Shown piece by piece: positions 542-28,241 of a stretch of DNA of 28,866 nt. A program made the position numbers and the translations under genes. The stretch is from a virus. Every line of letters starts with the position of its first letter. Within the stretch, counting starts at the first letter, position 1. The notes below the pieces were generated by a model. That model saw nothing but the letters and a program-made list of their open reading frames with translations. It was not told where the DNA came from and did not search any database. The stretch lies in IMG/VR virus record IMGVR_UViG_3300042878_001149, positions 1 to 28,866 of that record. One strand, written 5' to 3'.

Positions 542-1322
542 ATCGGTGCGTGATGTAGAGGTTACGTTTAAGACAGAAGACTCGCAATTTTATATAAAAG
601 ACGATAAAGGCGAATATTACATCTCTGATGACAATATGGGCGATTTTTTGCGCACACTTCTATTTATGATGGGGTTTAACAATGCAGATATGGAGAACTT
701 TTTGAAACATAGCACCATGGAAGTGAAGGCAGGCAGCAGGCACAGTGCAGCAGATATGAAAATCATACGTATGGCCCGCAAGGCATCGCAATCTATTGCA
801 GAATATATGGAGCAATTAGGCGATGATATGCAAGACGATGATACCGAAACCAAATCTATGCATGATATGGGCGATGAATTCAACACACGCCAGCGTATGA
901 TTGTGTCTGCACTTGTAGAAGTGACACACGAGGCAGGCAAGTTTGATACATCAGCTGGTGCCAATGGCGCACACTATATACCTGCAGCACAAAATACATT
1001 CATGGCTAAGGGCATTTGCTGCCAGCACTGCTATTTTTACCAGCCTGATTATCAGTGTGCCATTGTTGATGCAATCATCGATCCAATGGCCGTGTGTAAA
1101 CTTTGGGTAATTCCACAATCAGAGATTATGGAAGCAATGCCAGAATTAGATGTAATTACCGTGGTGGAAACGGTAGAGCCAATGGAAGTAGACGCTTCCG
1201 AATATGCAGAACCTATGGAAGGCGATGCTGATGAGTCTGATAGTACAGCCGTCATTCGCACTGCTATAGCGTCAGAAGCAGCAAAGAATTTTGTACGCCA
1301 GCTGATTGGAATGAATCAATGA
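504..1322 (+). CDS. Cysteine-cluster head-region protein, unknown function
   Basis: The frame opens with GTG at 504. ATG at 516 or 531 is as likely as the true start, the latter preceded by AAGAGA. The product has up to 272 residues. The middle (about residues 90-115) is acidic and rich in Asp and Met. At about residues 168-200 lies a cysteine cluster: CCQHC, then a Cys ten residues on, then VCKLW. This spacing resembles small Fe-S (HiPIP-like) or zinc modules seen in some phage head-gene proteins. The C-terminus is again very acidic, with a helical end. It overlaps the protease/capsid gene by four bases. Acidic, helical content next to the protease could fit a scaffold-related or minor head role, but this is inference. 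Confidence 0.75.
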   Translation: MQSIMKENAMEVKSVRDVEVTFKTEDSQFYIKDDKGEYYISDDNMGDFLRTLLFMMGFNNADMENFLKHSTMEVKAGSRHSAADMKIIRMARKASQSIAEYMEQLGDDMQDDDTETKSMHDMGDEFNTRQRMIVSALVEVTHEAGKFDTSAGANGAHYIPAAQNTFMAKGICCQHCYFYQPDYQCAIVDAIIDPMAVCKLWVIPQSEIMEAMPELDVITVVETVEPMEVDASEYAEPMEGDADESDSTAVIRTAIASEAAKNFVRQLIGMNQ

Positions 1323-2875
1323 TGTATGCAGTAAAACTTGTATCTGATTACGTGGTACGTGGTCGTGGCGTGGTGTTTGGTGGCAAAGATTTGACGGGTG
1401 ATAGATTCACCAAATCAACAGACTTTGGCGACACACGAACGTTTCTTGGCATGCCCGTGTACTACGATCACGGCCTAAGTAATTTGCAGTCACAAATTGG
1501 TACCGTCAAGATGTGGCAGCCTGATGATGAAGGCATTGATGTTGAAATTGAAATTGACAAACGCCACAAATATGCACAGCAGGTGATGGCACTCGTAAAA
1601 CGCGGTGTGCTAGGATTATCTACAGGTGCACTATCACATTTGGTGGTCCGTGATGGTGGCGAATTGAAACGATGGATTGTTGGGGAGATTAGTTTAACAC
1701 CTACACCAGCAGAACCACGAACCATGGCTATTTCTGATATGAAGGCAGTGCCACAGGCTGGCAACAGCGGCCCTGCAAGTAACAGTAGCAATATACACAC
1801 ATTTACATCAAAGGAATTAACCCCAATGTCAGACCAATTGATTAAAGATGCAGTAAAAGCCGCCATCGAAGAAATGGCAGGCGAACCTGTACGCGGTGGC
1901 GTTATCGCAGGCAATGCGCCAGCCACCAAGAAGCTCACCACTATGGGCAACAGCAATGATCAAATGCAAGCCCTCAAACACTGGATGCGTACTGGCGATG
2001 AAATTGCAGCGAAGGCCGTATTAGTCGAAGGCACCAATGCAAATGGTGGTTTCTTAGTACCGGAAACCTATGCACAGCAAATCATTGATAAGCGTGATGA
2101 AACGTGGATTGGTGCCAAGCTGCCAATGCAACGCTACACCACGCAATCTGACATTTTCAACATTGCTGCACAAAATGAGAAATCAGATTTTGCATTCGTG
2201 GCTGAATCTGGTGCGTACAATCAAGATGAGCCTACATTTTCAGGTGTGGCCATTACCTTGTACACGGCATCATTGGGTATGTTGATTTCAAACCAATTGC
2301 TTCGTGACCAAGCTATGGATCTTGATGGATTTGTTGCACGTGAAGTAGGGCGCGCGTATGCACGTCACTTGAATAATTTCATGTTGGTTGGTACGGGATC
2401 AAGCCAACCATATGGCATCATTCCACGTGCCACGGTAAATACCGAAACGCTGGCCAGCACCACGGGTGTTGATGCAGCGGATATTATCAACATAGTGCAC
2501 AAGTTGCCAAGCTGGTATGCAGATGATAGTGCCAGTGTTGGTTGGGTAATGCGTAACACCACGCTTGGAGCTATTCGCGCACTCACTGGTAACTTCTTTT
2601 CATTCCAAGCCACGCCACAAGGCGGCATTGATAATCTGTATGGAAAACCTGTTGCTGTTTCGGATAAGATTGCAGCCATGGCCGCCAGTGCCAAATCTAT
2701 TCTGTTTGGTAACTTCAATTACTATGCATATGTGGAAAACTTGAATCTGGAAATCAGCCGCAATCCATACCTGTACCAGGCGAATTACCAAACGGCCATT
2801 TTCTGTACTGCACGCTGGGGTGGCGATGTGACGCAGGCTGATGCATTCGTGCTGGGTAGCAATCCTGCTTCATAG
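1319..2875 (+). CDS. Prohead protease-major capsid protein fusion (HK97 fold)
   Basis: One uninterrupted frame of 518 residues holds two normally separate proteins. Residues 1-150 match the S78 prohead protease family: H51 in YYDHG, S101 in GLSTGA and E123 in GEISLTPTPAEPRT fit the expected catalytic residues. A Ser/Asn-rich linker (about 145-168) leads to M170. From there a helical segment like an HK97 delta domain precedes the capsid body (GGFLVPETYAQQI, then SDFAFVAESGAY and VGTGSSQPYGI). The product should assemble the shell, and the protease should trim it during maturation. AAAGGA at 1810-1815 stands 10 bases before the ATG of M170 (1826), so a separate 349-residue capsid protein is probably also made. 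Start at 1319 overlaps the previous stop (ATGA). Confidence 0.95.
   Translation: MMYAVKLVSDYVVRGRGVVFGGKDLTGDRFTKSTDFGDTRTFLGMPVYYDHGLSNLQSQIGTVKMWQPDDEGIDVEIEIDKRHKYAQQVMALVKRGVLGLSTGALSHLVVRDGGELKRWIVGEISLTPTPAEPRTMAISDMKAVPQAGNSGPASNSSNIHTFTSKELTPMSDQLIKDAVKAAIEEMAGEPVRGGVIAGNAPATKKLTTMGNSNDQMQALKHWMRTGDEIAAKAVLVEGTNANGGFLVPETYAQQIIDKRDETWIGAKLPMQRYTTQSDIFNIAAQNEKSDFAFVAESGAYNQDEPTFSGVAITLYTASLGMLISNQLLRDQAMDLDGFVAREVGRAYARHLNNFMLVGTGSSQPYGIIPRATVNTETLASTTGVDAADIINIVHKLPSWYADDSASVGWVMRNTTLGAIRALTGNFFSFQATPQGGIDNLYGKPVAVSDKIAAMAASAKSILFGNFNYYAYVENLNLEISRNPYLYQANYQTAIFCTARWGGDVTQADAFVLGSNPAS
1810..1828 (+). promoter_or_regulatory. Internal ribosome site for a separate major capsid protein
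   Basis: AAAGGA (1810-1815), ten bases, then an in-frame ATG at 1826 (M170 of the fusion). The sequence from AAGGA through TTAACCCC to ATG repeats the leader style found before 2888, 3104, 4169 and 7848. That argues it is a working start giving a 349-residue capsid protein in excess over the protease fusion. Confidence 0.7.
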
Positions 2876-3103: not shown

Positions 3104-3700
3104 ATGGCATATATAACTGCAGCAGACTTACGATCATACATTGGGGCCACCAGTAGCAGTGATGATACCCAATTAGGATTCGCTGCCACGCGTGCACAGT
3201 CAATGATCGAAACATACACCAATCGTATTTTTGAATGCCCTGCAGATACCACACGGTACTATAATGCACTTGATTTTCGGTATGGTGGAAACATTGATGC
3301 ATTCAATAACACACTGCAATTGGATTTTGATTTGTGCCAGCTTACGAGTATTTTGAATGGCAATGGTCAAGCGATACCAACAAACGTGGTAGTACTATTG
3401 CCAGCAAATTACACGCCAGCATACGCAATCAAGATACAAATGAACACCAGCTACATTTGGACCTATACAGGCACACCAGATGTGGCAATTCAAATTGTAG
3501 GACGGTTTGCCTACTCGATCACGCCACCATCTGATATTGTGGCAGCGTGTTTGCGTCTAGGCAGTTTCATTTATCGTGCACGCGAAGGCACACCTGATAG
3601 TGATAGAGCAATTTTATCAGCAGATGGCGTTATTCTGCAGGCACCACGAATACCCACAGACGTGCAGCAGATGTTGGAACCCTACAGGAAGCGTAGCTAA
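3104..3700 (+). CDS. Head-tail connector (gp6-like adaptor)
   Basis: This 198-residue product begins MAYITAADLRSYIG, followed by D(T)QLGFAATRAQSMIETYTNR, the helical N-terminal pattern of gp6-like head-tail connectors that form a ring under the portal. A beta-rich middle (about 45-130) is followed by helices ending PTDVQQMLEPYRK, also usual in the family. AAGGA plus TAAACCACT precedes the ATG. Its stop overlaps the next start (TAATG). Position after the capsid gene supports the call. Confidence 0.8.
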   Translation: MAYITAADLRSYIGATSSSDDTQLGFAATRAQSMIETYTNRIFECPADTTRYYNALDFRYGGNIDAFNNTLQLDFDLCQLTSILNGNGQAIPTNVVVLLPANYTPAYAIKIQMNTSYIWTYTGTPDVAIQIVGRFAYSITPPSDIVAACLRLGSFIYRAREGTPDSDRAILSADGVILQAPRIPTDVQQMLEPYRKRS

Positions 3701-4155
3701 TGGCCAGCAATATTGATGCAATCATATCTGCCATTGTGGCACTCAATGTACAGCTATCTGGCAGTAGCGTGCTGGTACGATCAGGCACCACACTAAAAGA
3801 TAGCGAGGAAATCAGCGATCTGCCAACGCGGATTGTGTCACCTGTTGGCATGACGTCACAACGAACCCGTGTGCAAACGTTAGGTGGTGCAGGCCACGTA
3901 ATGAGTACTGAATGGACCATCACGGACACATGCCTATTGCGTGCAGTAGGCATGGGTTTAGGGCTGATGGATATTGCCACGGTATACCAGGCATACATGG
4001 CGGCATACATTGAGCAGGCACGCCAGCTATCAAATCAAACCTACACACTAACACTACTCACGCAACGTGCACAGGTGGTTGAGTTTACAGTAGGATCAGG
4101 CCGAAATTATCATGCAGTTATTTGCACACTCACGTTTGTTGAGATTGTGCAATAA
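3700..4155 (+). CDS. Neck or tail-terminator protein (by position)
   Basis: This 151-residue product begins with a helix (MASNIDAIISAIVALNV) followed by beta strands, a helical region (AVGMGLGLMDIATVYQAYMAAYIEQ), and a final strand (CTLTFVEIV) ending in the last residues. Small alpha/beta proteins in this slot, between the head-tail connector and the major tail protein, are commonly tail-completion or tail-terminator proteins. No diagnostic motif is visible, so the role rests on gene order. It overlaps the connector gene by one base. Confidence 0.65.
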   Translation: MASNIDAIISAIVALNVQLSGSSVLVRSGTTLKDSEEISDLPTRIVSPVGMTSQRTRVQTLGGAGHVMSTEWTITDTCLLRAVGMGLGLMDIATVYQAYMAAYIEQARQLSNQTYTLTLLTQRAQVVEFTVGSGRNYHAVICTLTFVEIVQ

Positions 4156-4168
4156 GGAGATTTAAACC

Positions 4169-4615
4169 ATGGCACAAACCACAGGTGCAATGTCAGGATC
4201 AGCAGCTACCATCAGCTACCAATCTGGTGGCACTGGTACATACACGGATATTTCAGGAAGCAGCCAATCAGTAGACGTGGTAACGCTTACCAAAATGACG
4301 GGTGAAGCATACACGTTTGATGGTAGCTATGCAGTGTTGACGGTTGGCAAGAACGAACCATCAGAAGTAGTAGTAAATGTGTTGTACACCGATACCACTA
4401 CAGAAGCGTATCAAACCATGCTTACTGCATTTGAGCAAGGCACACTAATTTCGCTCAAATGGGTGCCAGGTGGTGTCACTGCTGGTGCAGATACCTACAC
4501 CACGAGTGCTGGCCAGATTACTGCTATTGATTTGCCTGCCATCGATGCATCAAGTGCAGGCCCAATCATGGCATCATTCACGCTCCGGTGTGCGAGTATT
4601 ACCCACACCACCTAA
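4169..4615 (+). CDS. Major tail protein (tail tube subunit)
   Basis: This 148-residue product is almost wholly beta: Gly/Thr/Ser-rich strands, no cysteine until the C-terminus, and the segments AYTFDGSYAVLTVGKNEP and VVVNVLYTDTTTEAYQTML, which look like a tube-forming beta sandwich with one helix. AAGGAG lies nine bases before the ATG, among the strongest sites in the genome, as expected for an abundant subunit. It sits directly before the tail chaperone pair and tape measure. An intergenic hairpin follows it. Confidence 0.8.
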   Translation: MAQTTGAMSGSAATISYQSGGTGTYTDISGSSQSVDVVTLTKMTGEAYTFDGSYAVLTVGKNEPSEVVVNVLYTDTTTEAYQTMLTAFEQGTLISLKWVPGGVTAGADTYTTSAGQITAIDLPAIDASSAGPIMASFTLRCASITHTT

Positions 4616-4631
4616 TTGGATTATGCACAGG

Positions 4632-4660
4632 TTGCGTGGTTGGCAGTGCTGGCCACGCAA
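4632..4660 (+). terminator. Hairpin after the major tail gene
   Basis: TTGCGTGG (4632-4639) and CCACGCAA (4653-4660) form a perfect 8-bp stem with a 13-base loop. No U-run follows, so it is not a standard intrinsic terminator. It may stabilise the upstream mRNA end or reduce transcription into the chaperone genes, which need fewer copies. Confidence 0.45.
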
Positions 4661-4683
4661 TACTACTATAGGAACAACACACG

Positions 4684-4899
4684 ATGTACATTATTGATTC
4701 TACAAAGTTAACTATTCGCGATGTGGCAAACCTTGTGAAGGCTGGCCAATCCAACAATTTAGATGCACTGCTACCAATCATGAATAAGTGTGTGCAAGTA
4801 GATGATGGGAGATTGGCAGAAGATTTGCCTGCAAACCATTTGGCGCAAATCATCAGTGCAATTGTTAGTCGTGTATCAGGTGACACAAACCCAAAATAG
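4684..4899 (+). CDS. Tail assembly chaperone, short form (gpG-like)
   Basis: This 71-residue, mostly helical product begins MYIIDSTKLTIRDVANLVKAGQ. It lies between the major tail protein and the tape measure, the fixed place of the G/GT tail chaperones that coat the tape measure before tail assembly. Its last sense codons (CCA AAA) form part of a CCCAAAA slippery heptamer right before the TAG stop. A -1 shift continues into the frame of the next gene. AGGAACAAC precedes the start. Confidence 0.75.
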   Translation: MYIIDSTKLTIRDVANLVKAGQSNNLDALLPIMNKCVQVDDGRLAEDLPANHLAQIISAIVSRVSGDTNPK

Positions 4900-25334: not shown

Positions 25335-28241
25335 ATGACGTCATACAAGGCGATCGAGGCCATACCAGGTTGGTACAACGTTGCCAAGAAGGCTGGCGAA
25401 TTATACGGAACCATCGATGCATACGAAAAGGTGCCTATGCTATATCGCGCAATTAACTTGCGTAGTGATGCACTAGGAACCGTGCCATTCGTATTAGAAC
25501 GCAATGATGTGCCTGTAGATTATCCATTCGTTACGCCAATGGATATGCTAATCCAAGAAACAGAACGTGCACTGCTGTTAACTGGCAATGCGTTTTGGCT
25601 GCGTCTATACCGCGGCCGTGTACTGTATGGGTTTCAATTCCTAAATCCTAAATCAGTTACTGTGGAATACAAGGCTGAATATCAAACAGCAGATAACATA
25701 CTATCAGGTTTACGATTTAGCCAAAACATCAATGGCACCATATACGGCCCGTGGACCATTGACCAAATTGTGTACTGGCGCGAACCATCAATTCGAGATG
25801 ATGTATACGGTGGCGTGGCACCTGCCAGCGTGGCACTGCAATCTGCACAGCTGGCATATTACTTGGAACGATTCACCAGTGCATTTTTTGAACATGGTGC
25901 ACAGCCAGCCGTAATCATGAGTCTAGACAAATCCATTACGCCACCAGAATATGAACGCCTTAAATCTGACTGGCGATCACGGGTTGAGAATGTTTCAAAC
26001 GCATTCAAAACATTCTTTTTTAGGGGTGAAGTTAAAACCCAAATTCTTACCTTCCCGTTAAAAGATATGGAACTTGTACCACTGCAAGAACGCGTCACCA
26101 CCAACATTACTACCACGTTTGGTGTGCCACGAACCATGCTAGAAGCAAGTGCTGCAAACTATGCCACGGCTGATAGTGATCGCCAATCATTTTGGCGAGA
26201 AACGATTGTGCCGCGGCTGGCATTCTATCAACGCGTGCTAAATCAGCAGGTGTTTGCACCACTCAAATACAAGATGCATTTCACACCAGAAGTACTAGAC
26301 GTATTTCAGACTGATGAAGCGGCCCGCGCTGGCAGTCTACTGCAATTGGTACAGGCTGGTGTGCCATTGAGTAGTGCAATGAAGATTCTTGGCTATAACA
26401 ACATTGACGAAGCAATAGGAATGCCATCAACCATCACTGGCCCTGACGTTACAGGAGTCAATGTGGATAGTGGTACAGAAATTGTGGATGAATCACTAAA
26501 CGATATGAAGGCAGTGCAGGCCAGCAGGTTGGCTGATTTGGAAGCATACGAACGCAAGGCACTGAAACGCTACAAGACCAAAGGCAATGCGGCTGCCACG
26601 TTTGAATCAGATGTATTGCCACGCTATATGACTGATTACATTCATGCAGAACTGAAAAGCGTAAAAAAAAAGAGTGATATAGCACATGTATTTCACTTCA
26701 TAAAGGCACTTACATTGGCCGATCTCACACCAGCTGAACGCAAGGTGTACAACGCCATTGCAAGTAAGCTGGCAACGCGGAGTGATAAGAATGCAGAAGC
26801 AATTGCACGTGGTGACTACACAGCCATTGACACTGATTTGCGTAATCTACTCACTGACAATGTTGCACAGCTGGTATTAGATGCAGGTGCACAACGCATT
26901 CGTACCATACCTGGCATGGCTGATGTTGTAGGTGATGACGTTATAAAACAAGGCATTGCCAATCATGCCAATACCTACATTGATTCGTATTGGAACCCCT
27001 TCCTGCAAGATTTATCAGCCACGGAGCAGAGTTATATTAGCAGCGTTATTGCCAATGCACAAACCACGGTTGGTATTACTGTTGATGATATTAAAAACCA
27101 ATTAGCCATGTTTGGTGATTTGCGCGCACAACGCATTGCATTCACTGAACCCACACGAGCTGCAGCACAGCAAACGTTTGCCATTCAGAATCAGGCACTG
27201 CAGGCTGGCATCAATACCACTATGGTATGGATTGCAGAAAATGATAGTGAAGTATGCAATTTGTGCGAACCACTAAACACACTGACACAAGACGAATGGC
27301 CACCAGAAGCAACAGATGGGCCACCACGCCACGTAAATTGCAGGTGTGCTATTGGATTGCAGCTGGTGAAATCGCCAATTGTAGAGCCTGAAGCAGGCAC
27401 CATCGATGTAGTAGCAGATCCAAACGCCACGCCACCACCAGTGCCATTATTACAGCGGAGTGCTGCTGATATTGCAGACTATATTATTAGTGAAGTGCCT
27501 GCAATAGCAAAGGCAGAATATGACACACTACAGCAATTAAAAAGTGAAGCTGATGCATTATACATACAGGCCACTACATCAACAGATTTACTTACGCGTC
27601 TAACTACAACAAAAGAATTTAATGCAAAACTTGTTGAAATTAAAAAACAACAAGACAAATATAAAAAGGCACAAATAAAAGGATATGAAACAGTACTGCC
27701 ACAATTACAATCAACCACGCCACAGCAGGTTGTATTAAGTTTCAATGCAAAATTCACTGCTGCACAGCAGGCCGAAATTGCTAAATATATTGAGTTAACC
27801 ATAGGAATGGCTAAACAACGCGCAGATGGAACGCCATTAACCATACGCGTTGCGCCAGAAACCAACCGTAATAATAATGGATCATACTCACCAAACACGC
27901 AAACATTGTATGTAAGAGGTAATGGACCAGTAGGCACTGTTGTACATGAAACCATACATGCAATGCAAGACCAATTGCAATATGGTGTATCTGAAACCAA
28001 TGTATTTGGCGATGCACGTACAGCTGGATTAACGCCAGATACAAAAAATGGATACCTTACATATAGTGGATTAACCGATAACCCATATGCATTTAGAATT
28101 TATAGTCAATCTAGCAGTCAGCCAATGGGTAAATATTGCGAAATACTTACCACTACATTGCAAAATATTGCAGGTTGGGGAACAATCAACGATCGTGGAA
28201 TTATTGAGCTGGCCACGCAAATCATAAAGGATAATAACTAA
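25335..28241 (+). CDS. Portal-MuF head protein-zincin-like protease fusion
   Basis: One 968-residue frame has three parts. Residues 1-390 are an HK97-type portal (LYRAINLRSDALGTVPF, LLLTGNAFW, FGVPRTMLEASAANYATADS). Residues about 400-675 are an SPP1 gp7/MuF-type head morphogenesis region, ending in its Cys/His signature (CNLCEPL at 641, then HVNCRC near 666). Residues about 690-968 form an AT-rich-coded domain with a charged coiled coil (about 740-790), then HETIH at 871-875 and a possible third zinc ligand E936 in CEILTTTLQ. Portals form the DNA entry ring, and MuF proteins are packaged inside heads and ejected. The end therefore resembles an injected metalloprotease. No frameshift separates the parts. 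Next gene overlaps by one base. Confidence 0.92.
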   Translation: MTSYKAIEAIPGWYNVAKKAGELYGTIDAYEKVPMLYRAINLRSDALGTVPFVLERNDVPVDYPFVTPMDMLIQETERALLLTGNAFWLRLYRGRVLYGFQFLNPKSVTVEYKAEYQTADNILSGLRFSQNINGTIYGPWTIDQIVYWREPSIRDDVYGGVAPASVALQSAQLAYYLERFTSAFFEHGAQPAVIMSLDKSITPPEYERLKSDWRSRVENVSNAFKTFFFRGEVKTQILTFPLKDMELVPLQERVTTNITTTFGVPRTMLEASAANYATADSDRQSFWRETIVPRLAFYQRVLNQQVFAPLKYKMHFTPEVLDVFQTDEAARAGSLLQLVQAGVPLSSAMKILGYNNIDEAIGMPSTITGPDVTGVNVDSGTEIVDESLNDMKAVQASRLADLEAYERKALKRYKTKGNAAATFESDVLPRYMTDYIHAELKSVKKKSDIAHVFHFIKALTLADLTPAERKVYNAIASKLATRSDKNAEAIARGDYTAIDTDLRNLLTDNVAQLVLDAGAQRIRTIPGMADVVGDDVIKQGIANHANTYIDSYWNPFLQDLSATEQSYISSVIANAQTTVGITVDDIKNQLAMFGDLRAQRIAFTEPTRAAAQQTFAIQNQALQAGINTTMVWIAENDSEVCNLCEPLNTLTQDEWPPEATDGPPRHVNCRCAIGLQLVKSPIVEPEAGTIDVVADPNATPPPVPLLQRSAADIADYIISEVPAIAKAEYDTLQQLKSEADALYIQATTSTDLLTRLTTTKEFNAKLVEIKKQQDKYKKAQIKGYETVLPQLQSTTPQQVVLSFNAKFTAAQQAEIAKYIELTIGMAKQRADGTPLTIRVAPETNRNNNGSYSPNTQTLYVRGNGPVGTVVHETIHAMQDQLQYGVSETNVFGDARTAGLTPDTKNGYLTYSGLTDNPYAFRIYSQSSSQPMGKYCEILTTTLQNIAGWGTINDRGIIELATQIIKDNN

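Follow-up and report, generated by a model that had tools for sequence, protein, structure and literature searches.

In phage lambda, the S49-family protease C is fused to a scaffold, and the scaffold, Nu3, is also made from an internal in-frame start. In herpesviruses, UL26 and UL26.5 give nested products, through which an abundant structural partner carries the protease into the procapsid interior. In phage HK97, the protease (gp4) and the capsid protein (gp5) are encoded by separate genes, the protease is recruited non-covalently, and the capsid precursor carries an N-terminal delta domain.

Fusions of the protease to the capsid protein itself have been published for Arthrobacter phages of clusters AM, AU and AN (PMC5513430), and for Microbacterium phages of clusters EE and EL together with RRH1 (Rhodococcus) and Gordonia phages (PMC7302621); the accessible portions of these two papers describe a fusion only, without mention of a nested start. 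Such fusions have long been noted as odd, and we found no explanation for why a shell with hundreds of subunits does not end up with hundreds of fused proteases. When the literature was searched for internal starts in protease-capsid fusions, with subscription papers only partly covered, no report was returned. The fusions and the nested protease-partner genes of lambda and herpesviruses are thus already known, and what appears to be new, as far as these searches reached, is a nested capsid start within protease-capsid fusions.

In this study, we describe such a gene in a window of 28,866 bases, the whole stretch of DNA that was analysed, which corresponds to positions 1 to 28,866 of the viral record IMGVR_UViG_3300042878_001149. 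The gene resembles lambda C/Nu3 in that the partner domain is preceded by an in-frame start, here with a ribosome-binding site that is conserved, but the partner is a capsid protein instead of a scaffold, and the protease is predicted to be S78/gp21-like instead of S49. The herpesvirus protease has a related fold, whereas its partner is a scaffold and its short form is produced from a separate transcript. Compared with HK97 gp4/gp5, the two functions and the gene order are equal, and the delta domain of HK97 is longer.

The fusion ORF occupies positions 1319-2875 on the plus strand and encodes 518 amino acids in a single, stop-free frame. It begins with tandem ATGs at 1319 and 1322, the first of which overlaps, as ATGA, the stop of an upstream ORF on the same strand (504-1322); the protease start may therefore be translationally coupled to that ORF. 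ORF 504-1322 contains a cysteine motif (CCQHCYFYQPDYQCAIVDAIIDPMAVCKLWVIP) and gave no significant match in Pfam or PHROG. In a number of related loci (L041-L046, L049 and L065) the frame runs approximately 180-260 residues further upstream, fusing an extra N-terminal region to the protease-capsid protein; this region has a YCVYK-type start and a 'RHSEADMKLIRTARKG' stretch that resembles the separate ORF 504-1322 of the window, and in L046 a Cys cluster similar to that of the same ORF is fused to the protease. Another composite head gene was observed at 25335-28241, where the portal ORF (968 aa) has a MuF-like, minor head region near residues 574-675 and represents a portal-MuF fusion. Fusions of this kind have been reported in some Microbacterium phages (PMC7302621).

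Residues 1-135 of the fusion (1319-1723, plus strand) are predicted to form a prohead protease of the S78/T4-gp21 type, on the basis of family matches, conserved His, Ser and acidic residues, and an assemblin/gp21 fold. The Pfam family Peptidase_S78 (PF04586) matched 15 of 42 family members (best E-value 2.5e-07), with the window protein itself unmatched, and the PHROG head maturation protease matched the window protein at 3e-06. The putative catalytic residues H51, S101 and E123 showed no substitution among the 42 aligned protease domains and are also present in A1 and A2. The AlphaFold (AF2) model of the domain, with a pLDDT of 87.9, was aligned by VIA-align with T4 gp21 (5jbl) over 123 residues (Z 10.6, rmsd 3.3), followed by herpesvirus proteases at Z 6-7; Foldseek alone gave a weak result for the protease (E about 0.09). 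The second half of the protein is an HK97-fold major capsid protein: Pfam Phage_capsid (PF05065) matched residues 243-513 (2045-2857, plus strand) at 3.2e-43, and Foldseek matched the fold to a GTA capsid at 1e-17, with HK97 also among the matches. The proposal of the sequence-only reading that an H51/S101/E123 protease lies in one frame with a complete HK97 capsid protein is thus borne out by the stop-free ORF, the invariant residues and the Pfam capsid match.

The two domains are joined by a hypervariable linker (1724-1825, plus strand). In the model, pLDDT is below 50 for residues 130-211, which predicts disorder, and a helix (residues 172-186) begins within this low-confidence region, two residues after M170. 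The median pairwise identity was 0.29 in the linker between the conserved EPRT motif and the nested start; it was 0.75 in the protease and 0.40 across the first 20 residues that follow the start. Searches of PDB sequences with the known fusions and with the protease profile gave no usable match, and therefore no solved structure from which a mature N-terminus could be read.

The linker holds the candidate ribosome-binding site of a second ORF. The sequence AAAGGA-ATTAACCCCA-ATG lies at 1810-1828, with the Shine-Dalgarno-like AAAGGA at 1810-1815 (plus strand), 10 nt 5' of an ATG at 1826 that is codon M170 of the fusion. From this ATG, a nested in-frame ORF of 349 amino acids (1826-2875, plus strand) would encode a short N-terminal helix followed by the complete HK97-fold capsid protein. 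M170 is the only in-frame ATG or GTG of the fusion ORF with a Shine-Dalgarno match of at least 5; since such matches also occur at 10 of the 258 internal in-frame ATG or GTG codons elsewhere in the window, the evidence from the window alone is only suggestive. The same applies to the earlier proposal that the leader copies one used at other strongly expressed structural genes. The pattern AAGGA-N3-9-ACC-N0-4-ATG does recur, with copies at 3104 (head-tail adaptor) and 4169 in addition to that of the nested start, but the enrichment is mild (three occurrences against about 0.5 expected, with 4 of 100 shuffles reaching three) and, taken from the window by itself, is suggestive and not decisive.

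Mild enrichment of the motif, together with a GC content that dips to 0.42 at the nested start from about 0.56, would also be expected if A-rich linkers yielded AAAGGA and ATG by composition. Comparative data make such a chance origin extremely unlikely. Two scans of viral contigs identified about 100 related loci, down to about 35-40% identity, in which the protease and capsid parts share one unbroken open frame; a scan of cellular genomes returned two distant capsid relatives only and no fusion. A start codon was present at the nested site in all 98 loci that span the linker (79 ATG and 19 GTG), which is better than composition allows; of the Val codons in those ORFs, just 28% are GTG. The nested ATG is present in L023 and, 51 codons after EPRT, in L046, and the L030, L058 and L077 groups carry GTG where their neighbours carry ATG.

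Among 29 divergent representatives used for the comparative tests, 22 had an in-frame start in the linker with a Shine-Dalgarno match of at least 5, compared with 3.9 after codon shuffling and 10.4 after synonymous shuffling, although these counts overstate independence since the representatives share descent. Shuffles that keep composition thus fall far short. Within the same ORFs, 29.9% of in-frame ATG/GTG codons in the linker had a match of at least 5, compared with 3.4% elsewhere, and at the site itself the match length was 5 in 22 representatives, 4 in six and 3 in one. The match falls in codon phase 0, 1 and 2 in 12, 12 and 4 representatives, respectively, AAAGGA encoding part of S-K-E in the window and K-G in L030 and L036, which indicates that the nucleotides are conserved and not the amino acids.

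The phase data bear on a second explanation, in which the full fusion is the sole product, all capsid protein is released by self-cleavage in the linker, and M170 and AAAGGA are kept for protein reasons such as a cleavage site or the start of a helix. The predicted disorder of the linker is in keeping with this, as is the fact that prohead proteases cut capsid precursors. Conservation of the protein, however, predicts neither a Shine-Dalgarno sequence kept in differing codon phases, where it gives KE, KG or GD, nor a start residue that is Met (ATG) in some loci and Val (GTG) in others, nor a fall in mRNA structure exactly at the start codon, and this explanation is considered quite improbable.

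The median MFE of 60-mers was -3.7 kcal/mol at the nested start and between -10 and -19 at distances of 40-60 nt in either direction. The structure z-score against shuffles was only +0.8, and part of the minimum is therefore explained by composition. In 24 of the 26 lineages in which the two starts were compared, mRNA was less structured at the nested one. In the window, both measures favoured the internal site, with stronger Shine-Dalgarno pairing (-5.6 vs -3.3 kcal/mol) and less structured mRNA (-3.0 vs -7.9) than at the full-length start. Across the lineages, however, the internal Shine-Dalgarno sequence is only moderate (5 nt), and its pairing was stronger than that of the full-length start in 8 of the 26 and weaker in 18. 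Shine-Dalgarno strength was for this reason rejected as a general predictor of the product ratio, and since it disagrees with accessibility across lineages, sequence cannot settle that ratio.

Because the internal Shine-Dalgarno sequence is in many lineages weaker than that of the full-length start, the nested start could also be a decaying remnant of a capsid gene that was once separate, one from which little protein is now made; protease followed by capsid is the gene order in comparable phages with separate genes. The start is, however, retained in each of the 98 loci despite their deep divergence, in a linker whose protein sequence is otherwise free to change, which argues against decay, and we regard a relic as quite improbable.

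Candidate nested starts were also found among fusions outside these loci. Fusions from Arthrobacter, Microbacterium, Rhodococcus RRH1 and small Gordonia phages, and PHROG 4523, have, like the window gene, a protease and an HK97-type capsid protein in one frame; the published actinophage fusions are annotated as single proteins, whereas the window gene is read here as encoding two products. The known fusion phages were not found by tblastn with the whole window fusion or with its protease half, and they are therefore at best remote relatives of the window protein. Twenty known actinophage protease-capsid fusion genes were compared, many of them interrelated and thus not 20 independent cases. 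In 12 of the 20, the protease is followed by an in-frame ATG whose Shine-Dalgarno match is at least 5 (2.2 expected). With a match of at least 4 after the protease motif the count rose to 19 of 20 (6.5 expected), which is an upper figure because the shuffle-test match of Idaho, and possibly of others, may not be a capsid start; Emperor was the one fusion of the 20 examined with no in-frame ATG preceded by a Shine-Dalgarno match after the protease. Examples include GMA5 (AGGAGG-8-ATG), GRU3 (AAGGAG-9-ATG), Circum (AAGGAG-8-ATG), RRH1 (AAGGA-9-ATG) and Adaia (AAGGA-10-ATG), and alike residues follow the nested ATG in Circum, Gordon and Count.

Two further observations were made on these genomes. 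In Gordon (L123, 7302-9458) and Count (L125, 11100-13337), repeated helical segments of the QKEVVHSLL type precede the nested ATG, as though additional delta-like copies were present in the full fusion and absent from the nested product. The record OR067381.1 ('Pseudomonas phage Hadban') gave a fusion match at 3195-4754, coordinates identical to those in Arthrobacter phage Adaia and with near-equal scores, and its host label may be wrong.

Taken together, the conserved start codon, the phase-varying Shine-Dalgarno sequence, the mRNA minimum and the recurrence in other fusion lineages make it very probable that the nested start functions and that one gene would give both a fusion and a capsid protein alone; from these sequence comparisons we put the probability at roughly 0.85. 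The same evidence upholds one part of the original proposal, a nested start for the capsid protein alone. Another part, a ratio of many capsid subunits to few fusions, is favoured by accessibility (24/26) and disfavoured by Shine-Dalgarno pairing (8/26), and is unproven.

In the two-product reading, initiation at 1319 or 1322 would give the 518-aa protease-linker-capsid fusion, and initiation at 1826 would give a 349-aa capsid precursor whose short N-terminal helix takes the place of a delta domain. As there is no stop between the domains, production of the protease means production of the fusion. The capsid domain common to both products would presumably allow them to co-assemble into the prohead, with the fusion taking the protease into its interior covalently and without a separate targeting signal; we infer this placement of the protease by its own capsid domain from the fusion itself, and consider it sound. 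The nested product, if made, would dilute the fusion so that not every subunit bears a protease, and after assembly the protease may cut the disordered linker or the N-terminal region and thereby free itself. The order of protease and capsid genes in comparable phages fits an origin in which the stop of the protease gene was lost and the ancestral capsid start was kept, and this origin is likely.

We further consider it fairly likely that natural HK97 protease-capsid fusions, in several lineages without recognisable sequence relation, as a rule rely on a nested start for the capsid protein, and would thus be two-product dosage devices that set the number of proteases per prohead. A nested start would explain why not each of the hundreds of subunits in a shell has to carry a protease, an answer that is simple and testable in cultured phages such as Arthrobacter phage Maggie or the Microbacterium EE phages. 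If the nested start is real, many fusion genes are currently annotated without their true capsid start, and a capsid-based example joins those from lambda and the herpesviruses, in which nested genes combine protease and scaffold.
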